Below, in pieces: positions 5,066-56,998 of a stretch of 64,000 bases of DNA (position 1 is its first letter; every line of letters begins with the position of its first letter). The notes under the pieces are model-generated. The model had not been told where the DNA came from. It worked only from the letters and a program-made list of their open reading frames with translations, and ran no database searches. Source of the stretch: Collinsella tanakaei YIT 12063 (GTDB taxonomy: Bacteria; Actinomycetota; Coriobacteriia; Coriobacteriales; Coriobacteriaceae); the NCBI RefSeq assembly GCF_000225705.1, contig NZ_JH126475.1, forward strand, positions 1 to 64,000, written 5' to 3'. Both the position numbers and the translations under genes were made by a program.

Positions 5066-6289
5066 ATGAAGCTGTACCATCGCGAGCAATATCTGAAAAA
5101 GATTCGACCGTTCTACGATGACGATCTGATCAAGGTAATCACAGGTATTCGTCGCTGCGGCAAATCGTGCCTCATGGCAACGATTGCCGAAGAACTGAGA
5201 AATCGCGGTGTCGAAGATAAGGACATCATCTACCTCGATCTTGATAAGCGCGGAAACCGCTCGATTAAGACGCCTGAGCAGCTGGAGAAAAAGATCGAGT
5301 CGCTTCTGGCTGACAACGACTTCAAATACCTCTTCATCGATGAGGTGCAGAACGTTCGAGACTACGAGGAGGTCGTGAACGCCTACAACTCGGATGGCGG
5401 CTTCTCGATATTCATCACAGGCTCCAACTCGTATCTGCTGTCTGGCGAGTTGATGACCAAGCTCACGGGCCGATACGTGGAGTTCGAGATGTTCACCCTG
5501 TCCTTTTCCGAGTTCCTCGATATGAAGAGGTTCATGGGCAAGGCGGTCGGTGATGCGCGAATCGAATTTGACGAATATCTACGCTATGGCGGGTTTCCTC
5601 GGTCTCTGGAATACGAAGATCCCGAGGCAAAGGCTCGCTACATCGAGGATGTCGTTGGGCAGATCGTCGACAAGGACATCAGGTCTCGCAACAAGATCCG
5701 GAACATTGACACGTTCAACCGTGTCATGACCTACGTCATCAACAACTATGGTGCGCCAACGAGCCTCACCAACCTTCATGACTATTTCACTAAGACGGAG
5801 CGCATTGCCGTCGAGCGGCGGACAATCGCTTCCTACATCCAGATGCTCGTTGATGCCAAGGTGCTCTACAGATGCGAGAGATTCGACCTTAAGTCCCGCA
5901 AATCGTTGCGTGGCGAGGAGAAGCACTACCTTGCGGATCCGGGTATCTATTTTGCGCGCAACATCGATGTCCGGCTGAATTACGGGCCCTCGTTGGAAAA
6001 CGCTTTGTACATCTATCTCCGCTCGAGGGGATATAAGCTATCCGTAGGCCGCATCGGGAAGCTGGAGTGCGACTTCATAGCCCGCAGGCGCAACGCCTAT
6101 GCCTACATCCAGGTTTCGATGACAATTGCCGATAGGAACGTGGAAGAGCGTGAGTACAGGCCATTCGGCTACATCAGGGACGGGTATCCGCGATACCTTT
6201 TCACGCTTGATCCCCTGCTGCAGGAGAGAGATGGGGTCAGACATCTTAACATGGTGTCGTTTATGAAAGATAATGGCGACCTTATTTGA
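5066..6289 (+). CDS. ATP-binding protein, AAA_14 with DUF4143
   Basis: The 407-residue protein carries a Walker A motif GIRRCGKS near residue 27, a Walker B YLFIDEVQ near residue 90 and sensor-like FITGSNS. These are followed by the FGGFP-like LRYGGFP and a DUF4143 C-terminal half. Near residue 330, LECDFIARR with AYIQVS resembles the PD-(D/E)XK-like core of DUF4143. Such proteins are abundant in gut bacteria, and their cellular role is unproven, with suggestions of toxin or defence function. The gene stands alone with a hidden ribosome binding site and a terminator about 170 bp downstream. Confidence 0.9.
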   Translation: MKLYHREQYLKKIRPFYDDDLIKVITGIRRCGKSCLMATIAEELRNRGVEDKDIIYLDLDKRGNRSIKTPEQLEKKIESLLADNDFKYLFIDEVQNVRDYEEVVNAYNSDGGFSIFITGSNSYLLSGELMTKLTGRYVEFEMFTLSFSEFLDMKRFMGKAVGDARIEFDEYLRYGGFPRSLEYEDPEAKARYIEDVVGQIVDKDIRSRNKIRNIDTFNRVMTYVINNYGAPTSLTNLHDYFTKTERIAVERRTIASYIQMLVDAKVLYRCERFDLKSRKSLRGEEKHYLADPGIYFARNIDVRLNYGPSLENALYIYLRSRGYKLSVGRIGKLECDFIARRRNAYAYIQVSMTIADRNVEEREYRPFGYIRDGYPRYLFTLDPLLQERDGVRHLNMVSFMKDNGDLI

Positions 6290-16336: not shown

Positions 16337-18799
16337 TTAGCTGCGCAAAGAAGGAGCGCTGGCTGTGGGGCTGGCATCGTTGCGCCTGCGCCTGCGAACG
16401 GTCCATATGCCAATGAACGCCATGGCGCCGCAGCCTACCAGCGTGAGGAGAAGGCCGGCGGTGAAGCCGGGAGAGCGGTAGGTGAGCTCGATGGTGTGGC
16501 TGCCGGTAGAGACGGGGATGGAGCTCATGCCTTTGTCGAACGCGGGCGATATAGGAGCCTCGCTGCCGTCCACGCGGGCTTGCCAGCCTTTGTCGTAGGG
16601 TATGGAGAGCAGCAGGGTGGTGTCGCGCGCGGCCGTGTATATGCCACAGACGTGGCCGTCTTCAAACACGTTGGGGACAAACTGTGCCTGCGAAAGGCTG
16701 TCATGGATGCGGGTGAACTCGTCCATATTAAGCGCGTAGAACAAGCAGCCCGTGCCAGCGGGGACAGCGCCGCCCTCATAGAACGGGTCGATGTTTACGG
16801 TATGGGTTGTGGCGCTCTCCACAATCTGGCTGTTGACCTCGCGCACGTTGTTGGAGAAACGCCAGCCTTCCTTTATGAGGGGGCCTCCGTCGACACTGAA
16901 TGAGACGGGGGAGTAGCTTCCCGCGTTTTCGCCGCGTACCACATAGGCATAGCCAATGCTGTTGGCCGGAACATCGACGGTCCAGCTTAGGCGTCCGTCT
17001 GCATCGTGTTGCGTGGCATCGATTTTTTGGTAGAGCTCAACCGTGGAGCCCGTGATTGCTGAGAACAGAGCGTTTTGGCGCTCGAATGGATTGCCCCCAT
17101 TGGGGATGGCGAGGCTGTAGTTTGCATCGACGCTTATGCCTAGGGAAAGCGCGTATGGGTTGTACGAAATGGAGGCGCCGTTACTTGGGGTTTCGATGCC
17201 GGTCGCGCGGTATCCTGCGGGCGTTCCCCAGGTGCCGACGTAGCGCACGCCAAGCAAGCTATCCATTGCCAGCACGGGTGAAGCGTAGACGGTTGAGAAC
17301 TCCCCCACGCTGCTATACCCCATGCTGTTGAGGAACCGTATGGCGGCAGGGGAGTTTGCGGACGAATAGGACGAGAGCTGGTTGAAGCCGTGCGAGATGC
17401 CCTCGTTGAACGAGGCGCCGATTCTGTTGTACGTCTTGTCGAAGCGGTAGAAGGGGTCCGTGTCCGCTTGCTTGATCTGAGCGAGCTGCACGTCAGCCTC
17501 TTCAACGTAGGCGTTATGTTGCTCCTGCGTGTAGTTGTAATAGATCTTTTCCCATGCGGAGTGGGCGTTGAGCCCCAAATCGACGCAGGCGAACAAAAGA
17601 AGGGCGGTCAGCGCTGCGTTCTTTGCAATGGGCGACACTAGGCGACGAGCCGTTTCTTCCTCCGATTTTTCTGCTGTCGCGCGTGCGTATAGGTAATGCG
17701 CTGCGGTCCAGATGAGCAGGAAGGTGAACAGGAAGGCGGTTCTAGAATAAAACCCGTTTGGAACTCGCATGCCGCACCATACAAACTGGAGAGCGCCAAA
17801 AATGCTCGATGCAGCCATGAACGCGAGGCATGCGAATGAGAGGAGCCTGAATTTACAATCGACCTTTGGGGTGAGAAGGAAGCAGGCGGAAAGCACGAGT
17901 GGAATAATGCCTGCAAAGAATTGCGGTACCGCGTCCGGTGCCCATTGCGAGGGAAGAAAGCCAAGCAGGATTGCGTGGGGCGTGGTGGCAAGGGGGGAAA
18001 TCTGGGAAGAACCAGAGCCTCCCAGCATAGCGAGTACGGTTGGAACGAATGTCCAGGAGGAGAGCAAAAGGCCAAGAACGATGGCGAATGTGAAGCGCCC
18101 CGCCCTGCCGGCGACCCAGCGGGCGGAGACGCGCGCGCCGGACGTTATATGATCCGCCAGCTCGAAGAGGACGAACAGACAGAGGAACAACAGCGTGATG
18201 TAGGCCATGTACCAGCAGGTGATCACGTCAATGGCGACTATTGCGGCGAGGGGCGCAAATGAGCCGCCTATGATGAGCCTATGGCAGCGCCAGGCGGCGA
18301 GCGGCAGGATGATGAGCGCGTCGAGCCAAAGCGGGTTGCGCAGGTTGGTTACCGTCCAGGTCGACCAGGTGTAGCAAAGCCCAAGCGTGAGCGCCCACGC
18401 AGGGGAGAGGGAGAACCTCTTTTTGAGATACCAGGTCATGGCGAGCTGCATGCATCCTAGCTTGAGCGCGACGATGACGTAAATGGCAAGGGTGAGATGG
18501 TTTTGGTCGAACAACAGGGTCACCAGGTTAAACGGACTGGCGAGGTAGTAGCTGTAAAGCCCCCAGGTATTGGATCCCATGCCTTGGGCAAAGGAGTAAA
18601 AGATGCTTCCCTGTCCGCACAACAAGCTTCTGTACCAGGTAAAGAAGTCGATATATTGATATCTAAGATCGTCCGCCAAAAAGGATTGGGCACCAAAGGG
18701 ATACGTACCCGCCCAGACGGATTGCACGGCAAGCATGGCGATGGGCAGGGTGAAGCAGACGGCCCAAAATAAAAGAGTTCTGCAACCATTCTTATTCAT
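16337..18799 (-). CDS. YfhO family membrane protein
   Basis: The 820-residue protein starts with a membrane helix and carries a dozen or so hydrophobic segments in its first 450 residues, with LADDLRYQYIDFFTWYRSLLC and FSFAQGMGSNTWGLYSYYL-type sequence typical of YfhO near residues 40-80. A long extracytoplasmic domain and a last membrane helix with an RRRRR tail follow. YfhO proteins are GT-C-like glycosyltransferases implicated in glycosylating lipoteichoic acid or other cell-wall polymers with a polyprenyl-phosphate sugar. It overlaps the upstream GT2 gene by 8 bp, so the pair is translationally coupled and probably forms one pathway. Confidence 0.85.
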   Translation of the reverse strand: MNKNGCRTLLFWAVCFTLPIAMLAVQSVWAGTYPFGAQSFLADDLRYQYIDFFTWYRSLLCGQGSIFYSFAQGMGSNTWGLYSYYLASPFNLVTLLFDQNHLTLAIYVIVALKLGCMQLAMTWYLKKRFSLSPAWALTLGLCYTWSTWTVTNLRNPLWLDALIILPLAAWRCHRLIIGGSFAPLAAIVAIDVITCWYMAYITLLFLCLFVLFELADHITSGARVSARWVAGRAGRFTFAIVLGLLLSSWTFVPTVLAMLGGSGSSQISPLATTPHAILLGFLPSQWAPDAVPQFFAGIIPLVLSACFLLTPKVDCKFRLLSFACLAFMAASSIFGALQFVWCGMRVPNGFYSRTAFLFTFLLIWTAAHYLYARATAEKSEEETARRLVSPIAKNAALTALLLFACVDLGLNAHSAWEKIYYNYTQEQHNAYVEEADVQLAQIKQADTDPFYRFDKTYNRIGASFNEGISHGFNQLSSYSSANSPAAIRFLNSMGYSSVGEFSTVYASPVLAMDSLLGVRYVGTWGTPAGYRATGIETPSNGASISYNPYALSLGISVDANYSLAIPNGGNPFERQNALFSAITGSTVELYQKIDATQHDADGRLSWTVDVPANSIGYAYVVRGENAGSYSPVSFSVDGGPLIKEGWRFSNNVREVNSQIVESATTHTVNIDPFYEGGAVPAGTGCLFYALNMDEFTRIHDSLSQAQFVPNVFEDGHVCGIYTAARDTTLLLSIPYDKGWQARVDGSEAPISPAFDKGMSSIPVSTGSHTIELTYRSPGFTAGLLLTLVGCGAMAFIGIWTVRRRRRNDASPTASAPSLRS

Positions 18800-19751
18800 C
18801 GATGTTGCTCTCCCTCACAATGTAAAGGGGGCGGTGCTTGGTCTCAAGGTAGGTCTTGGCAAGATATTGGCCCATGATGCCAAGGCAGAGGAGCTGAATG
18901 CCCCCGATGAAGATGATGATGCAGGCGAGTGACGGCCAGCCTTGGACGGCATCGCCGAACAGCAGTGCGCGAAAGAAGATAAAGATGAGGGCGATGAACG
19001 CGACGATGCAGAAAATCGTTCCCATAACAGAGGCGATCGAGAGCGGGACGGTAGAGAAGGCGACGATTCCATCGATTGAGTAAAGCAAAAGGGAGAAGAA
19101 GCTCCACTTGGTTTCTCCGGCGACGCGGTTTACGTTGACGTAGGGCAGCCACTTTGTTTTGAAACCAACCCAGCCGTATATGCCCTTGGAAAAACGGTTG
19201 TACTCTGGCATGGATAGAATTGCATCAACCATGGACCGGCGCATAAGGCGAAAGTCTCGTGCGCCGTCGACAATCTCTGTTTTGGAGATGCGGTTGACGA
19301 GGCGGTAGAACATCCGGGCGAAAAATGATCGGATGGGCGGTTCGCCTTGGCGCGTGGTGCGTCGCGTGGCGACGTTGTCATAGTCTTCCGTTTGGAGAAT
19401 CTCATACATCTGCGGCAAGAGGGATGGGGGATCTTGCATGTCCGCATCCATGGTGGCGACGTAATCGCCCGTGGCGTGCTGCAATCCTGCGAGAAGACCT
19501 GCTTCCTTGCCAAAGTTGCGCGAGAAGGAGATCCATTTGATGGCAAGGGGATCGTGCGCGCTCGCTTGCTCTTTCATAACGTCAAGCGTCCGGTCCGTTG
19601 AGCCGTCGTCGACAAGGATAACCTCGAAGGCGAGGGAATGCTCGACTTCCATCTTTTTCGCTACGCTTGAAAGCTCCTTGAGAAAGAGCGGCAGGCTCTC
19701 TTCCTCGTTGAAGCATGGAACAACAACGGATAGAGTTTGCTGTGCGTTCAA
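18792..19751 (-). CDS. GT2 family glycosyltransferase (DPM1/GtrB-like, membrane-anchored)
   Basis: Transfers a sugar from a nucleotide donor to a polyprenyl phosphate. LSVVVPCFNEEESLPLFL at the N-terminus, VILVDDGSTDRT near residue 45 and the metal-binding MDADMQDPP near residue 97 identify the family. Two membrane helices lie near the C-terminus (about residues 230-295). The start is TTG at 19751 behind GGGGGT. At 319 aa it has the size of GtrB-type enzymes. Its end overlaps the YfhO start by 8 bp: the likely scheme is that this enzyme makes the lipid-linked sugar that YfhO then uses outside the membrane. Confidence 0.88.
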   Translation of the reverse strand: MNAQQTLSVVVPCFNEEESLPLFLKELSSVAKKMEVEHSLAFEVILVDDGSTDRTLDVMKEQASAHDPLAIKWISFSRNFGKEAGLLAGLQHATGDYVATMDADMQDPPSLLPQMYEILQTEDYDNVATRRTTRQGEPPIRSFFARMFYRLVNRISKTEIVDGARDFRLMRRSMVDAILSMPEYNRFSKGIYGWVGFKTKWLPYVNVNRVAGETKWSFFSLLLYSIDGIVAFSTVPLSIASVMGTIFCIVAFIALIFIFFRALLFGDAVQGWPSLACIIIFIGGIQLLCLGIMGQYLAKTYLETKHRPLYIVRESNIDE

Positions 19752-41676: not shown

Positions 41677-41727
41677 AAAAAAGGACGCTTTTTAGGCGGT
41701 GAACTTGCCTGAAAAGCGTCCTTTTTG
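41677..41727 (+). terminator. Intrinsic terminator of prfC
   Basis: AAAAAGGACGCTTTT and AAAAGCGTCCTTTTT form a 15-bp stem, and inner AGGC/GCCT extends it around the centre. The T-run ends at about 41726. The A-rich 5' side makes it work on both strands, so it also serves the convergent OPT gene. Confidence 0.85.
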
Positions 41728-53927: not shown

Positions 53928-54721
53928 TGCATGTCGTTGTGTGCGTCAAAGCGGTGCCCGGCAGCACCGAGGTCAAAATGGATCCCAAGACCAATACCAT
54001 CGTCCGCGACGGAGGGCAGGCGGTTATCAACCCGTTCGACGCCTCCGCGCTGGAGACGGCCCTTCGCATCAAGGATGCCGCCGCGGAGCCGGCGGACGTG
54101 CGAGTGAGCGTTCTGTCCATGGGCATTCCCGCCACGGCGGATTTGCTGCGCGATTGCATCGCCCGCGGCGCGGACGATGGATTGCTGCTGAGCGACCGCG
54201 CCTTTGCCGGAGCGGATACGCTGGCGACCACCTACGCGCTGTCACGCGGTATCGAGGCGTTGGGCGGCGCCGATCTCATCTTGTGCGGAAAGATGGCCGT
54301 CGACGGCGATACGGCCCAGATCGGTCCCGAACTTGCAGGCACGTTTGAGTGGCCGTGCGCGACCGATGTTGTCGAGGTTCGCGGGCTGGAACCGATGTGC
54401 ACATGCGTGCGCGCTAACATCGATCGCGGCGTGGCGTCGCTGGCCGTGCCGCTTCCCGCCGTGCTGACGGTGTCCAAGGACATCGCCGATCTGCGTATGC
54501 CCAGCATCGCCGGCATCATGGCGGCCGAGACGGTCTCGATCGAGGTTCTCGACGCGAAGCGCTCCGCGTCGGACGCGCGCCGCATTGGTTTGAGCGGGTC
54601 TCCCACGCAGGTGGTGAGGTCGTTTGTTCCCGATCGCGCCGACGGCGCCGTGACCGTTCCGGGCGATGCGGCCGAGCAGGCATGCGCCTTGGCCCAGCTG
54701 ATTGAGGGGATGTCGCTATGA
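53927..54721 (+). CDS. etfB: Electron transfer flavoprotein subunit beta (bifurcating type)
   Basis: The protein begins MHVVVCVKAVPGSTEV and includes ADLILCGKMAVDGDTAQIGP near residue 120-140. The DGDTAQ[IV]G variant belongs to bifurcating EtfB proteins that hold the second FAD, whereas classical EtfB has DDDCNQTG at this place. NPFDASALETALRI is also family typical. The start codon overlaps the stop of the dehydrogenase as TGATG, and GGGAGG lies just upstream. The 264-residue product would form with EtfA and the dehydrogenase a complex that couples lactate oxidation by NAD+ to ferredoxin oxidation. Confidence 0.9.
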   Translation: MHVVVCVKAVPGSTEVKMDPKTNTIVRDGGQAVINPFDASALETALRIKDAAAEPADVRVSVLSMGIPATADLLRDCIARGADDGLLLSDRAFAGADTLATTYALSRGIEALGGADLILCGKMAVDGDTAQIGPELAGTFEWPCATDVVEVRGLEPMCTCVRANIDRGVASLAVPLPAVLTVSKDIADLRMPSIAGIMAAETVSIEVLDAKRSASDARRIGLSGSPTQVVRSFVPDRADGAVTVPGDAAEQACALAQLIEGMSL

Positions 54722-55944
54722 GTGGCTTGCTGGTAGATAAAGACCTGTGCATAGGCTGCGGCCTGTGCGTCAAGGCGTGCGGCAACGCCGGTATCGTTGT
54801 GGAGGGCGAGCGCCCCAACCGCTTCGCCCACGCCACCGATGGGTGCATCCTGTGCGGCGCGTGCGTGCAGACATGCCCCAAGAAGGCGATTTCCATCGCG
54901 CGCGATGAGGATGGGGACGAGACCCCGCAGCAACGCGCAAGCCGCCTGGCGGCTTATAAGGATGTTTGGGTGTTCGCGCAGGTCGACCAGACGGGCCGCG
55001 CGCTTCCCGTGGCGTTCGAGTTGCTGGGTCGCGCCCGCGAGCTCGCGGCTATTCGCGGCTGCCGTGTTGTCGCCCTGCTGGGCCAGGGCGCTACCGCCCC
55101 GCAAGACCAGGCTCCAGCGCTGCTCGCGGCAGGTGCGGACGAGGTCTTGCTGTGCCGCGATGACCGTCTGGCAACCTTGGATGCGCGGGTCTACGCGCAT
55201 TGGATCTGCGATATGGCGGGCGAGCGCAAGCCGGAGATCATCTTGTACGGCGCCACCGCATTTGGACGAGAGCTCGCGCCGGGCGTGGCCGTCCGGCTGC
55301 AAACGGGCCTTACCGCGGACTGCACGGTTCTCGACATCGATCCCGCCACGGGCCTGTTGCAGCAGACGCGCCCTGCTTTTGGTGGCAACCTCATGGCCAC
55401 TATCGAATGCCCGCGGCATCGCCCCCAGATGGCCACCGTTCGCCCGGGCATCTTCGCTGCTCCCCAAGTAGATGCTTTGCATGCCGAGCGCGGCCGCATC
55501 ACCCAAGTCGCCCTGGCCGACGCCTGGCGGCCGAGCGTGCGCGTGGATGCCATCGAGCATGCCGGCGCGACGGACATCATCACGGACGCCGACGTGTTGG
55601 TGGTAGCGGGTCGCGGCATCGGTTCCAAAAAGAACCTAGCGGTGGCTCAGCGGCTGGCAGATGTCCTGGGTGGCAAGCTTGGCTGCACGCGCCCCTTGGT
55701 GGAGTCCGGTTGGCTGGAGTACTGGCACCAAGTGGGGCAGACCGGTGTGTCCGTATCTCCCAAGCTCCTCATCAGCCTGGGCGTCTCCGGCGCTATCCAG
55801 CATGTGGCGGGAACGGGCGGCGCGCGGACCGTGATCGCTGTCAACGAGGATCCGAACGCCCCCATCTTTGGATCCGCCACCTATCGCGTGGTGGGCGATT
55901 GCGTGGAGGTCGCCCGCGAGCTGACGGCGAGGCTTCAGGCCTAG
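54718..55944 (+). CDS. etfA: Electron transfer flavoprotein subunit alpha with N-terminal 2[4Fe-4S] domain
   Basis: The first 60 residues carry two ferredoxin motifs, C11-x2-C14-x2-C17-x3-C21 and C43-x2-C46-x2-C49-x3-C53. Ordinary EtfA lacks these; LctC and CarE of bifurcating complexes have them. The rest is EtfA, with the FAD site near the C-terminus (VVAGRGIGSKKNLAVAQRLA, GQTGVSVSPKLLISLGVSGAIQH, NEDPNAPIFGSATYRVVGD). At 408 residues the length fits. Its start overlaps etfB by 4 nt (ATGA). A terminator at 56004-56034 ends the operon, and the hairpin array follows. Confidence 0.92.
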   Translation: MSGLLVDKDLCIGCGLCVKACGNAGIVVEGERPNRFAHATDGCILCGACVQTCPKKAISIARDEDGDETPQQRASRLAAYKDVWVFAQVDQTGRALPVAFELLGRARELAAIRGCRVVALLGQGATAPQDQAPALLAAGADEVLLCRDDRLATLDARVYAHWICDMAGERKPEIILYGATAFGRELAPGVAVRLQTGLTADCTVLDIDPATGLLQQTRPAFGGNLMATIECPRHRPQMATVRPGIFAAPQVDALHAERGRITQVALADAWRPSVRVDAIEHAGATDIITDADVLVVAGRGIGSKKNLAVAQRLADVLGGKLGCTRPLVESGWLEYWHQVGQTGVSVSPKLLISLGVSGAIQHVAGTGGARTVIAVNEDPNAPIFGSATYRVVGDCVEVARELTARLQA

Positions 55945-56003: not shown

Positions 56004-56034
56004 AAGGGCGGTCGAGTTTTTCGTCCGCCCTTTC
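56004..56034 (+). terminator. Intrinsic terminator of the lactate dehydrogenase/etf operon
   Basis: AAGGGCGG (56004-56011) pairs with CCGCCCTT (56025-56032), with a 13-nt loop and TTTCT after it. It is 60 nt downstream of the etfA stop. The T-run is short but the stem is strong. Confidence 0.7.
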
Positions 56035-56047
56035 TATGCGGTGACGA

Positions 56048-56331
56048 AGGTCTGTTTGGGCACCCGGTTTTGACGCGGGTGCCCAAACAGACCTCTTGGT
56101 GCGCCGGGGCGTCCGCCTCGGCCCCCAGTTTGGATGCGGGTGCCGAGGCGAACATCTTGGAACGATGGGATGTCCCTTTGGGCACCCGGTTTCAAATCGG
56201 GTGCCGAGACGGGCGTTCCCGAGCACGCAGGCGTCCGTTCCGTCCCCGAGTTTGAGATCGGGTGCCGAGACGAACGCACCCGATGCTCTTGCATGGCCGC
56301 TTCGGCACCGATTATTAATCTCGGTGCCGAA
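56048..56331. repeat. Array of five hairpins with a 61-bp period
   Basis: Five inverted repeats have centres near 56071, 56132, 56193, 56254 and 56316, spaced about 61 bp each. Unit 1 is an 18-19-bp perfect stem (GTCTGTTTGGGCACCCG at 56050-56066 with its complement ending 56093). Unit 2 pairs CGCCTCGGC with GCCGAGGCG. Unit 3 pairs GGCACCCG with CGGGTGCC. Unit 4 pairs CCCGA with TCGGG, and outer GCGT with ACGC. Unit 5 pairs TTCGGCACCGA with TCGGTGCCGAA. Loops are 8-10 nt and mostly begin GTTT. Units share the shape and GGGTGCCGAG sequence but have diverged. No T-runs follow. The function is unknown. Confidence 0.8.
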
Positions 56332-56459
56332 AAAGCAATACGGCCCGTATTAACATCAGGCTCGAGTCCCCGCTCTTTTGCTCGATACCGTTGGCGCGTG
56401 AAATCTGCTCGTTTGCAGGAAAGATGACGGCGCCCAGTACTTGCTCGCACTTGATTCTG

Positions 56460-56518: not shown

Positions 56519-56998
56519 ATGTACCAGTCCCACGAGTTTTACCTTCGCCGCTGCATCGAGATTTCCAAGGATTCCCGCGCCCACGGCAACACGCCGTTTG
56601 GCGCCCTGTTGGTCGATAAGGACGGCAACATCTTGATGGAGCAGGAGAACATCGAGATCACCGAGAAGGTCTGCACCGGCCATGCCGAGGCGACGCTCGC
56701 GGCGTGCGCGTCCCATGAGTACTCCAAGGCGTTTTTGTGGGATTGCACCCTGTACACCACCGCGGAGCCGTGCGCTATGTGCGCCGGCGCCATCTACTGG
56801 GCGAACATCGGCCGCGTGGTATACGGCATGACGGAGCGTCGCCTGCTCGAGCTCACCGGTTCTAACGAGCAGAACCCCACGTTCGACCTGCCGTGTCGCA
56901 ACGTCTTCGCATGCGGTCAGAAAAAGATCGAGGTCGTGGGACCCTTCCCCGAGGTCGAGGTCGAGGCTGCCGCCGTGCACGAGGGCTATTGGGACTAG
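56519..56998 (+). CDS. Nucleoside/guanine deaminase (CDA fold)
   Basis: A zinc deaminase: the HAE motif (TGHAEATLAACA) supplies a zinc ligand and the catalytic glutamate, and PCAMCAGAIYWANI gives the two zinc cysteines. NTPFGALLVDKDG near residue 25 and a C-terminal part CGQKKIEVVGPFPEVE fit guanine deaminase-like proteins rather than TadA. The ATG at 56519 has GGGAGGAG and gives 159 aa. It is followed by a terminator, then a nucleobase permease and GntR regulator, pointing to purine or pyrimidine salvage. Confidence 0.88.
   Translation: MYQSHEFYLRRCIEISKDSRAHGNTPFGALLVDKDGNILMEQENIEITEKVCTGHAEATLAACASHEYSKAFLWDCTLYTTAEPCAMCAGAIYWANIGRVVYGMTERRLLELTGSNEQNPTFDLPCRNVFACGQKKIEVVGPFPEVEVEAAAVHEGYWD

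Follow-up and report, generated by a model that had tools for sequence, protein, structure and literature searches.

What are the regularly spaced palindromes that lie between an etfA-type gene and a deaminase gene in Collinsella tanakaei YIT 12063, and do they work as DNA or as RNA? The window analysed here is a stretch of 64,000 nucleotides, numbered from its first letter. An earlier note, made from the letters alone, had described five periodic inverted repeats in it. Unit starts from a covariance model (56041, 56102, 56163, 56224 and 56286; spacing 61, 61, 61 and 62) bear out both their number and their place; in self-comparison of the 64 kb window, a lag of 61 gave the top match among lags from 30 to 120 (0.549, with 0.498 for the runner-up). 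The array occupies the intergenic gap between the end of etfA (55944) and the start of a cytidine-type deaminase gene (56519), 3′ of the etfA terminator. The features are as follows.

54718-55944, plus strand: etfA-type gene with a 4Fe-4S domain, the upstream neighbour (ORF, Pfam).
56004-56032, plus strand: terminator-like hairpin of the etf operon, 5′ of the array (sequence reading and stem computation).
56041-56346, no strand: five-unit dyad array of strict pitch, one of six in the genome.
56048-56094, no strand: unit 1, a perfect inverted repeat of 19 bp (arms 56048-56066 and 56076-56094, loop of 9).
56111-56153, no strand: dyad core of unit 2, centre 56132.
56172-56214, no strand: dyad core of unit 3, centre 56193.
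56233-56275, no strand: dyad core of unit 4, centre 56254, the weakest hairpin of the five.
56301-56331, no strand: unit 5, inner stem perfect over 11 bp, centre 56316.
56519-56998, plus strand: cytidine/deoxycytidylate-type deaminase gene, the downstream neighbour (ORF, Pfam).

Unit 1, described earlier as almost perfect over 19 bp, is perfect over that length. Unit 5, called perfect again, is so over 11 bp only, and the core said to be common to the units, GGGTGCCGAG, is exact in units 2-4 and not in units 1 or 5. Folding of single units on the plus strand gave z values of -7.1, -3.5, -4.8, -2.0 and -4.6 for units 1-5 (units 2, 3 and 5 being good folds and unit 4 a poor one), and the whole array folded with z of about -10.9 on the plus and -10.5 on the minus strand. 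Both sides of the stem had changed at 9 of 19 pairs among the five units, which exceeds all 500 shuffles. Neither strand carries a T-tract or a terminator-like site (a G+C stem followed by a T-tract) within the array, and 61 is not divisible by 3; the dismissal of stacked terminators and of a coding repeat thus stands. CRISPR had also been set aside, rightly: regular spacing and unrelated linkers are shared with such loci, but here the core is about 55% alike between units and dyad throughout, the linkers are about 14 nt, and no cas gene was recognised among the neighbours read. Elsewhere in the window, a near-perfect inverted repeat of 20 columns (AAAAAGGACGCTTTTT...AAAAGCGTCCTTTTT, 41678-41726) is terminator-like on both strands.

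The window array is not alone. A blastn search with it found no further copy in its own genome; a covariance model built from its five units recovered more arrays there, and the refined model comprises 31 units in a gap-free alignment. The arrays retrieved with the 31-unit model are these.

C9:56041-56346, 5 units, the window array.
C7:16808-17185, 6 units.
C1:649588-649832, 4 units.
C7:50054-50358, 5 units.
C8:106909-107152, 4 units.
C7:58657-59087, 7 units.

Across the six arrays, start-to-start distances were 61 bp in seventeen cases, 62 bp in seven and 72 bp in one. The majority consensus of this 61-bp class is TGTACGnnTGGGCACCCAGnTTnAAnnTGGGTGCCCAnACGTACA, with a half-site of about TGTACGnnnnGGCACCCAG followed by its inverse. 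Two symmetric blocks 10 bp apart, at 7-12 and 17-21 bp out from the centre, carry most of the information; the centre itself, the interval between the blocks and the linkers carry little. Units were no more alike within arrays than between them (identity 0.495 and 0.491), and linkers, only about 14 nt long, were near chance (0.28-0.29). Since within-array identity equals that between arrays and linkers are random, the pitch looks constrained and not a relic of recent duplication. Outside the blocks the units have reached saturation, and they are either old or of independent origin; their spacing has nevertheless barely moved, which suggests selection on the pitch.

The surroundings of the six arrays have little in common. 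Their 400-bp flanks showed no mutual likeness, and shared mobile flanks were therefore rejected. From the ORF table and a reading of the flanks, the window array and arrays A, B and D lie between codirectional genes, array C between convergent genes (a U32-type peptidase gene and rplX) and array E between divergent genes; where terminators of neighbouring genes are visible, the arrays sit outside them. Array C was considered as a rearrangement breakpoint in the ribosomal operon and discarded, as rplX does not adjoin rplE in any of nine relatives checked within the genus. A split spc ribosomal operon, with rplX apart from rplE (L219, L145), is thus common to this genome and those nine. To the right of array D (L146:2700-2800), inverted and direct copies of ACTTCTCTGTAAC stand 5′ of an HTH_3/DUF3990 gene and are probably its operator. 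A lone GGGCACCC/GGGTGCCC palindrome 5′ of a putative tetR-like gene (C3:203546; also in G024) was at noise level (E 2.7) and was dropped.

Beyond this genome the 61-bp class was not recovered. With one genome per species surveyed, it was found in one species only: the covariance model detected no such array in 66 other family genomes, where its weak matches were to FtsZ or other coding sequence, single hairpins and terminators, and blastn with the window array gave no match in 44 other genus genomes. A two-unit pattern had 14 occurrences in the C. tanakaei genome and, among 397 other Coriobacteriia, a single one in each of two, the level of the reversed-pattern control and hence background. 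Phage and plasmid collections held no match to the array, IMG/VR held none to the two-unit or core patterns, and Rfam returned only animal microRNA models far below cut-off, which we regard as chance matches. A search of open-access papers found none on such arrays in Collinsella, nor on the layout in general. The earlier note had taken a lack of homologous arrays in related genomes as grounds for rejecting the array. No sequence homologue was indeed detected in other species, but that test would have misled: five further arrays exist in the same genome, and relatives have analogous ones.

These analogues are built on a different spaced palindrome, first noticed in G005. Of the 44 other genus genomes, 24 carry 22-58 copies of the pattern TGTAACA-N20-30-TGTTACA and two have a single copy each; the C. 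tanakaei genome has none, and the reversed control gave zero in all. The dyad, TGTAACA-N25-TGTTACA, forms intergenic arrays with a pitch of 80 or 81 bp in the three genomes examined in detail.

Loci L255-L289 and L230, genomes G001-G003: 80-bp arrays.

Among 95 units in these genomes, the pitch was 80 bp in 36 intervals, 81 bp in 21, 79 bp in one and 161 bp in one. The half-site is TGTCTCrATCTGTAACAnnTAG; the 17-bp half-sites are conserved, the centre is a T- or A-tract and the linkers are unconserved. The arrays are intergenic in every gene orientation, with 14 of the 36 loci convergent. Between species, orthologous arrays keep their place while differing by whole units (2 versus 5, 3 versus 4 and 2 versus 3), and a unit is replaceable as a block. 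Pairing among variable interior positions did not exceed chance, and a two-state position 23 bp out showed no significant covariation (p 0.13). Because variable positions do not pair, the 80-bp units are dyad recognition sites rather than hairpins; provided that the two classes are analogous, no other argument bears more strongly on how the 61-bp arrays may act. Between the neighbouring genes of the two classes, likeness was limited to a distant pair at 32% identity (array E and L274) and a single short, weak match. Clustering of the analogue at the origin or terminus of G002 was considered; the distribution is uneven and not clearly tied to either.

Sampled stretches of other family members, sister genera included, show further strict-pitch arrays. 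In G054, TGGTCA-N12-TATGGG recurs at exactly 52 bp, with seven head-to-head units at each of two intergenic loci, and three palindromes stand at a pitch of 41 bp. In G022, the best genus match for etfA (71%), four copies of CTGTGCGCnnnnGGAACA at 32-34 bp are reminiscent of the 61-bp half-site. The arrays with coordinates are listed here.

L459:13103-13463, L453:3261-3611 and L455:5224-5418, G054: 52-bp arrays.
L488:12599-12846, G022: 31-bp array of 8 units.
L481, about 5780-5990, G060: 30-bp array.
L485, about 18700-18800, G045: 29-bp array.

The array detector was positive on 1 of 60 block-shuffled controls and at several further sampled loci, and only arrays read by eye were counted; the short-pitch arrays may in part be ordinary minisatellites. 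The G022 31-bp and G060 30-bp arrays have a common core like ACTTTCGGACA, though they belong to different genera. A very long near-perfect palindrome (CCGGAAGGCGCCGCCGCGTGAAAACGGGACAGGGGTTATTTCACATGGGGCGG and its inverse; L422:16760-16860) stands just 5′ of a spaced CTGTGCGC array in G022.

How the arms of the 61-bp units have changed bears on whether they act as hairpins or as DNA sites. The check for covariation suggested at the outset was positive: across the 31 units of this genome the arms covary beyond what the consensus predicts, with 71.3% of cells paired compared with 65.4 (sd 1.1) in shuffles, and 59 double changes compared with 38.8 expected from shuffles. The signal lies in the outer block (17 and 19-24 bp out; p < 0.001, or 0.003 with shuffling inside arrays); it is marginal at 13-16 bp out (p 0.02, or 0.056 with shuffling inside arrays) and absent from the inner block and linkers. 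Where both arms depart from consensus, they are complementary in 50 of 99 cells, and in perfect units such as unit 1 the departures are mirrored between arms. G.T and A.C mismatches did not differ (50 versus 68, p 0.12), so that neither RNA strand appears preferred. Covariation with no preferred strand points to DNA: either short-loop palindromes are corrected on a hairpin template, or extrusion is selected for. Some hairpin-linked process also acts in this genome's 61-bp version, as the symmetric, unit-specific changes show.

On balance, and with a mild lean rather than conviction, we favour a model in which the six intergenic strict-pitch dyad arrays are sites for a fast-changing putative DNA-binding protein. 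A protein-binding array is also the best supported of the options raised by the earlier note, with binding itself presumed. A sequence-specific protein would dock on each unit as a dimer or tetramer, and the fixed pitch would let adjacent complexes touch or line up, perhaps assembling cooperatively. Each array would then form one nucleoprotein patch with a chromosomal role; its action would be on the DNA (local folding, anchoring, insulation) rather than via transcripts of the genes beside it. As relatives have other motifs and pitches, the protein and its sites seem to evolve rapidly and in step. The observations behind the model are the six arrays with their pitch, the conserved dyads over random linkers in any gene orientation, and the analogous 80-bp arrays with gain and loss of units; by analogy, the 61- and 80-bp classes may share one role. 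Against it, plain dimer sites would not predict the arm covariation of the 61-bp class, and that class was found in one species only. The period had been equated with about six helical turns, but at 10.5 bp per turn 61 bp makes 5.8 turns, and a count of 6.0 requires about 10.2 bp. The suggestion that all sites face the same way gained no support from harmonic analysis of the 61-bp class, which found no dominant helical signal. At 10.5 bp per turn, neither 61.3 nor 80.4 bp corresponds to a whole number of turns; the pitches 41, 52, 61.3 and 80.4 bp come close to multiples of 10.05-10.4 bp, and same-face phasing of the arrays is a guess.

The arrays might instead be selfish or mobile palindromes of the REP/BIME kind, spread and amplified by an enzyme that acts on the hairpin in single-stranded form, with regular spacing arising incidentally as arrays are copied. 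REP/BIME elements are dispersed intergenic palindromic repeats, and a chromosome-organising role through bound proteins has been proposed for them (PMC2817692). BIMEs have regular REP spacing with alternating orientation (PMC2817692), and this layout is the nearest precedent for the 61-bp arrays. There are points of likeness: the 61-bp units are dispersed extragenic imperfect palindromes able to form hairpins, they stand several to an array at regular spacing with alternating half-sites, although as whole dyads they have only a weakly defined orientation, and their mutations are symmetric; the 80-bp class adds gain and loss of whole units. Yet that class is without hairpins, and the C. tanakaei genome has no gene for RAYT, the transposase associated with REP elements and BIMEs (the Y1 transposase family PF01797 gave 0 matches in it and was found by the same search in 5 of 14 control genomes), no GTAG-type REP consensus and 31 units only, whereas REP elements usually exceed 100 per genome (PMC2817692). 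The pitch is equal across all six arrays despite unrelated linkers, flanks are unrelated as well, and units within an array are no closer than units of different arrays. The earlier suggestion of a REP-like element thus fails in the strict sense, and in the wider sense we consider it unlikely.

Less probable again, and distinctly doubtful, is that the arrays are old neutral tandem repeats without function, their arms symmetrised by hairpin-templated (quasipalindrome) replication errors. The mirrored departures of perfect units and the complementary double departures fit such a process, as does the lack of any such effect in the 80-bp class, whose interior is longer. It leaves unexplained, however, why 24 of 25 intervals are 61-62 bp despite chance-level linkers, and why 57 of 59 are 80 or 81 bp in the other class; nor does it account for the conserved blocks.

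A structured RNA had also been raised by the earlier note; we regard it as very unlikely that the arrays are transcribed and serve as a string of stems, be it as decoy, processed RNA or mRNA-stability element. Single units and the whole window array do fold strongly and pairs covary significantly, but both strands fold equally with no G-U excess on either, the window array lacks a promoter-like site as well as any terminator within or beyond it, arrays stand in any gene orientation, and no Rfam family matches; an exact pitch is unexpected for RNA, and variable positions of the 80-bp analogues are unpaired. That the arrays are multi-site operators of adjacent genes, the regulon of an ordinary transcription factor, is highly improbable: these are dyad sites in intergenic DNA and some lie 5′ of gene starts (the window deaminase, divergent array E), but one of the six arrays and 14 of the 36 80-bp loci have convergent flanking genes, the recognised neighbours have no common function, and 4-7 sites per locus would be unusual.

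The model of arrays bound by a fast-changing protein can be set beside two other systems. The ParB-parS system is nearly universal, and the arrays resemble parS in being clustered dyad sites; they differ in motif, in their many loci and fixed pitch, and in having a lineage-specific motif. Clusters of TGTTTCACGTGAAACA, which we take to be parS, were seen in the G018 and G054 samples. The stoperators of mycobacteriophage L5 are dispersed repressor sites, single and oriented, in a phage genome; like them, the arrays offer many intergenic copies of one putative protein-binding site, but at strict pitch and on the chromosome.

Collinsella is among the commonest genera of the human gut, and we know of no chromosome-organising DNA site beyond parS from it. 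To our knowledge, bacterial intergenic DNA rarely shows a pitch that is exact despite random linkers and is preserved at orthologous loci, with motif and pitch differing by lineage. It is possible, and we offer it tentatively as rather less likely than the model for this genome, that the Coriobacteriaceae share an undescribed system of intergenic strict-pitch arrays (31, 41, 52, 61 and 80 bp) read by a rapidly evolving DNA-binding protein, which would build regular patches of nucleoprotein serving defence or the organisation of the chromosome; from lineage to lineage, sites and protein would be exchanged wholesale. The arrays are ready-made bait DNA for fishing out the putative protein. If they are selfish, they would be a new class of repeat, and under either reading the variable number of units could serve strain typing; should they form a scaffold for the chromosome, parS, matS or BIME sites would have in them a fast-evolving counterpart.
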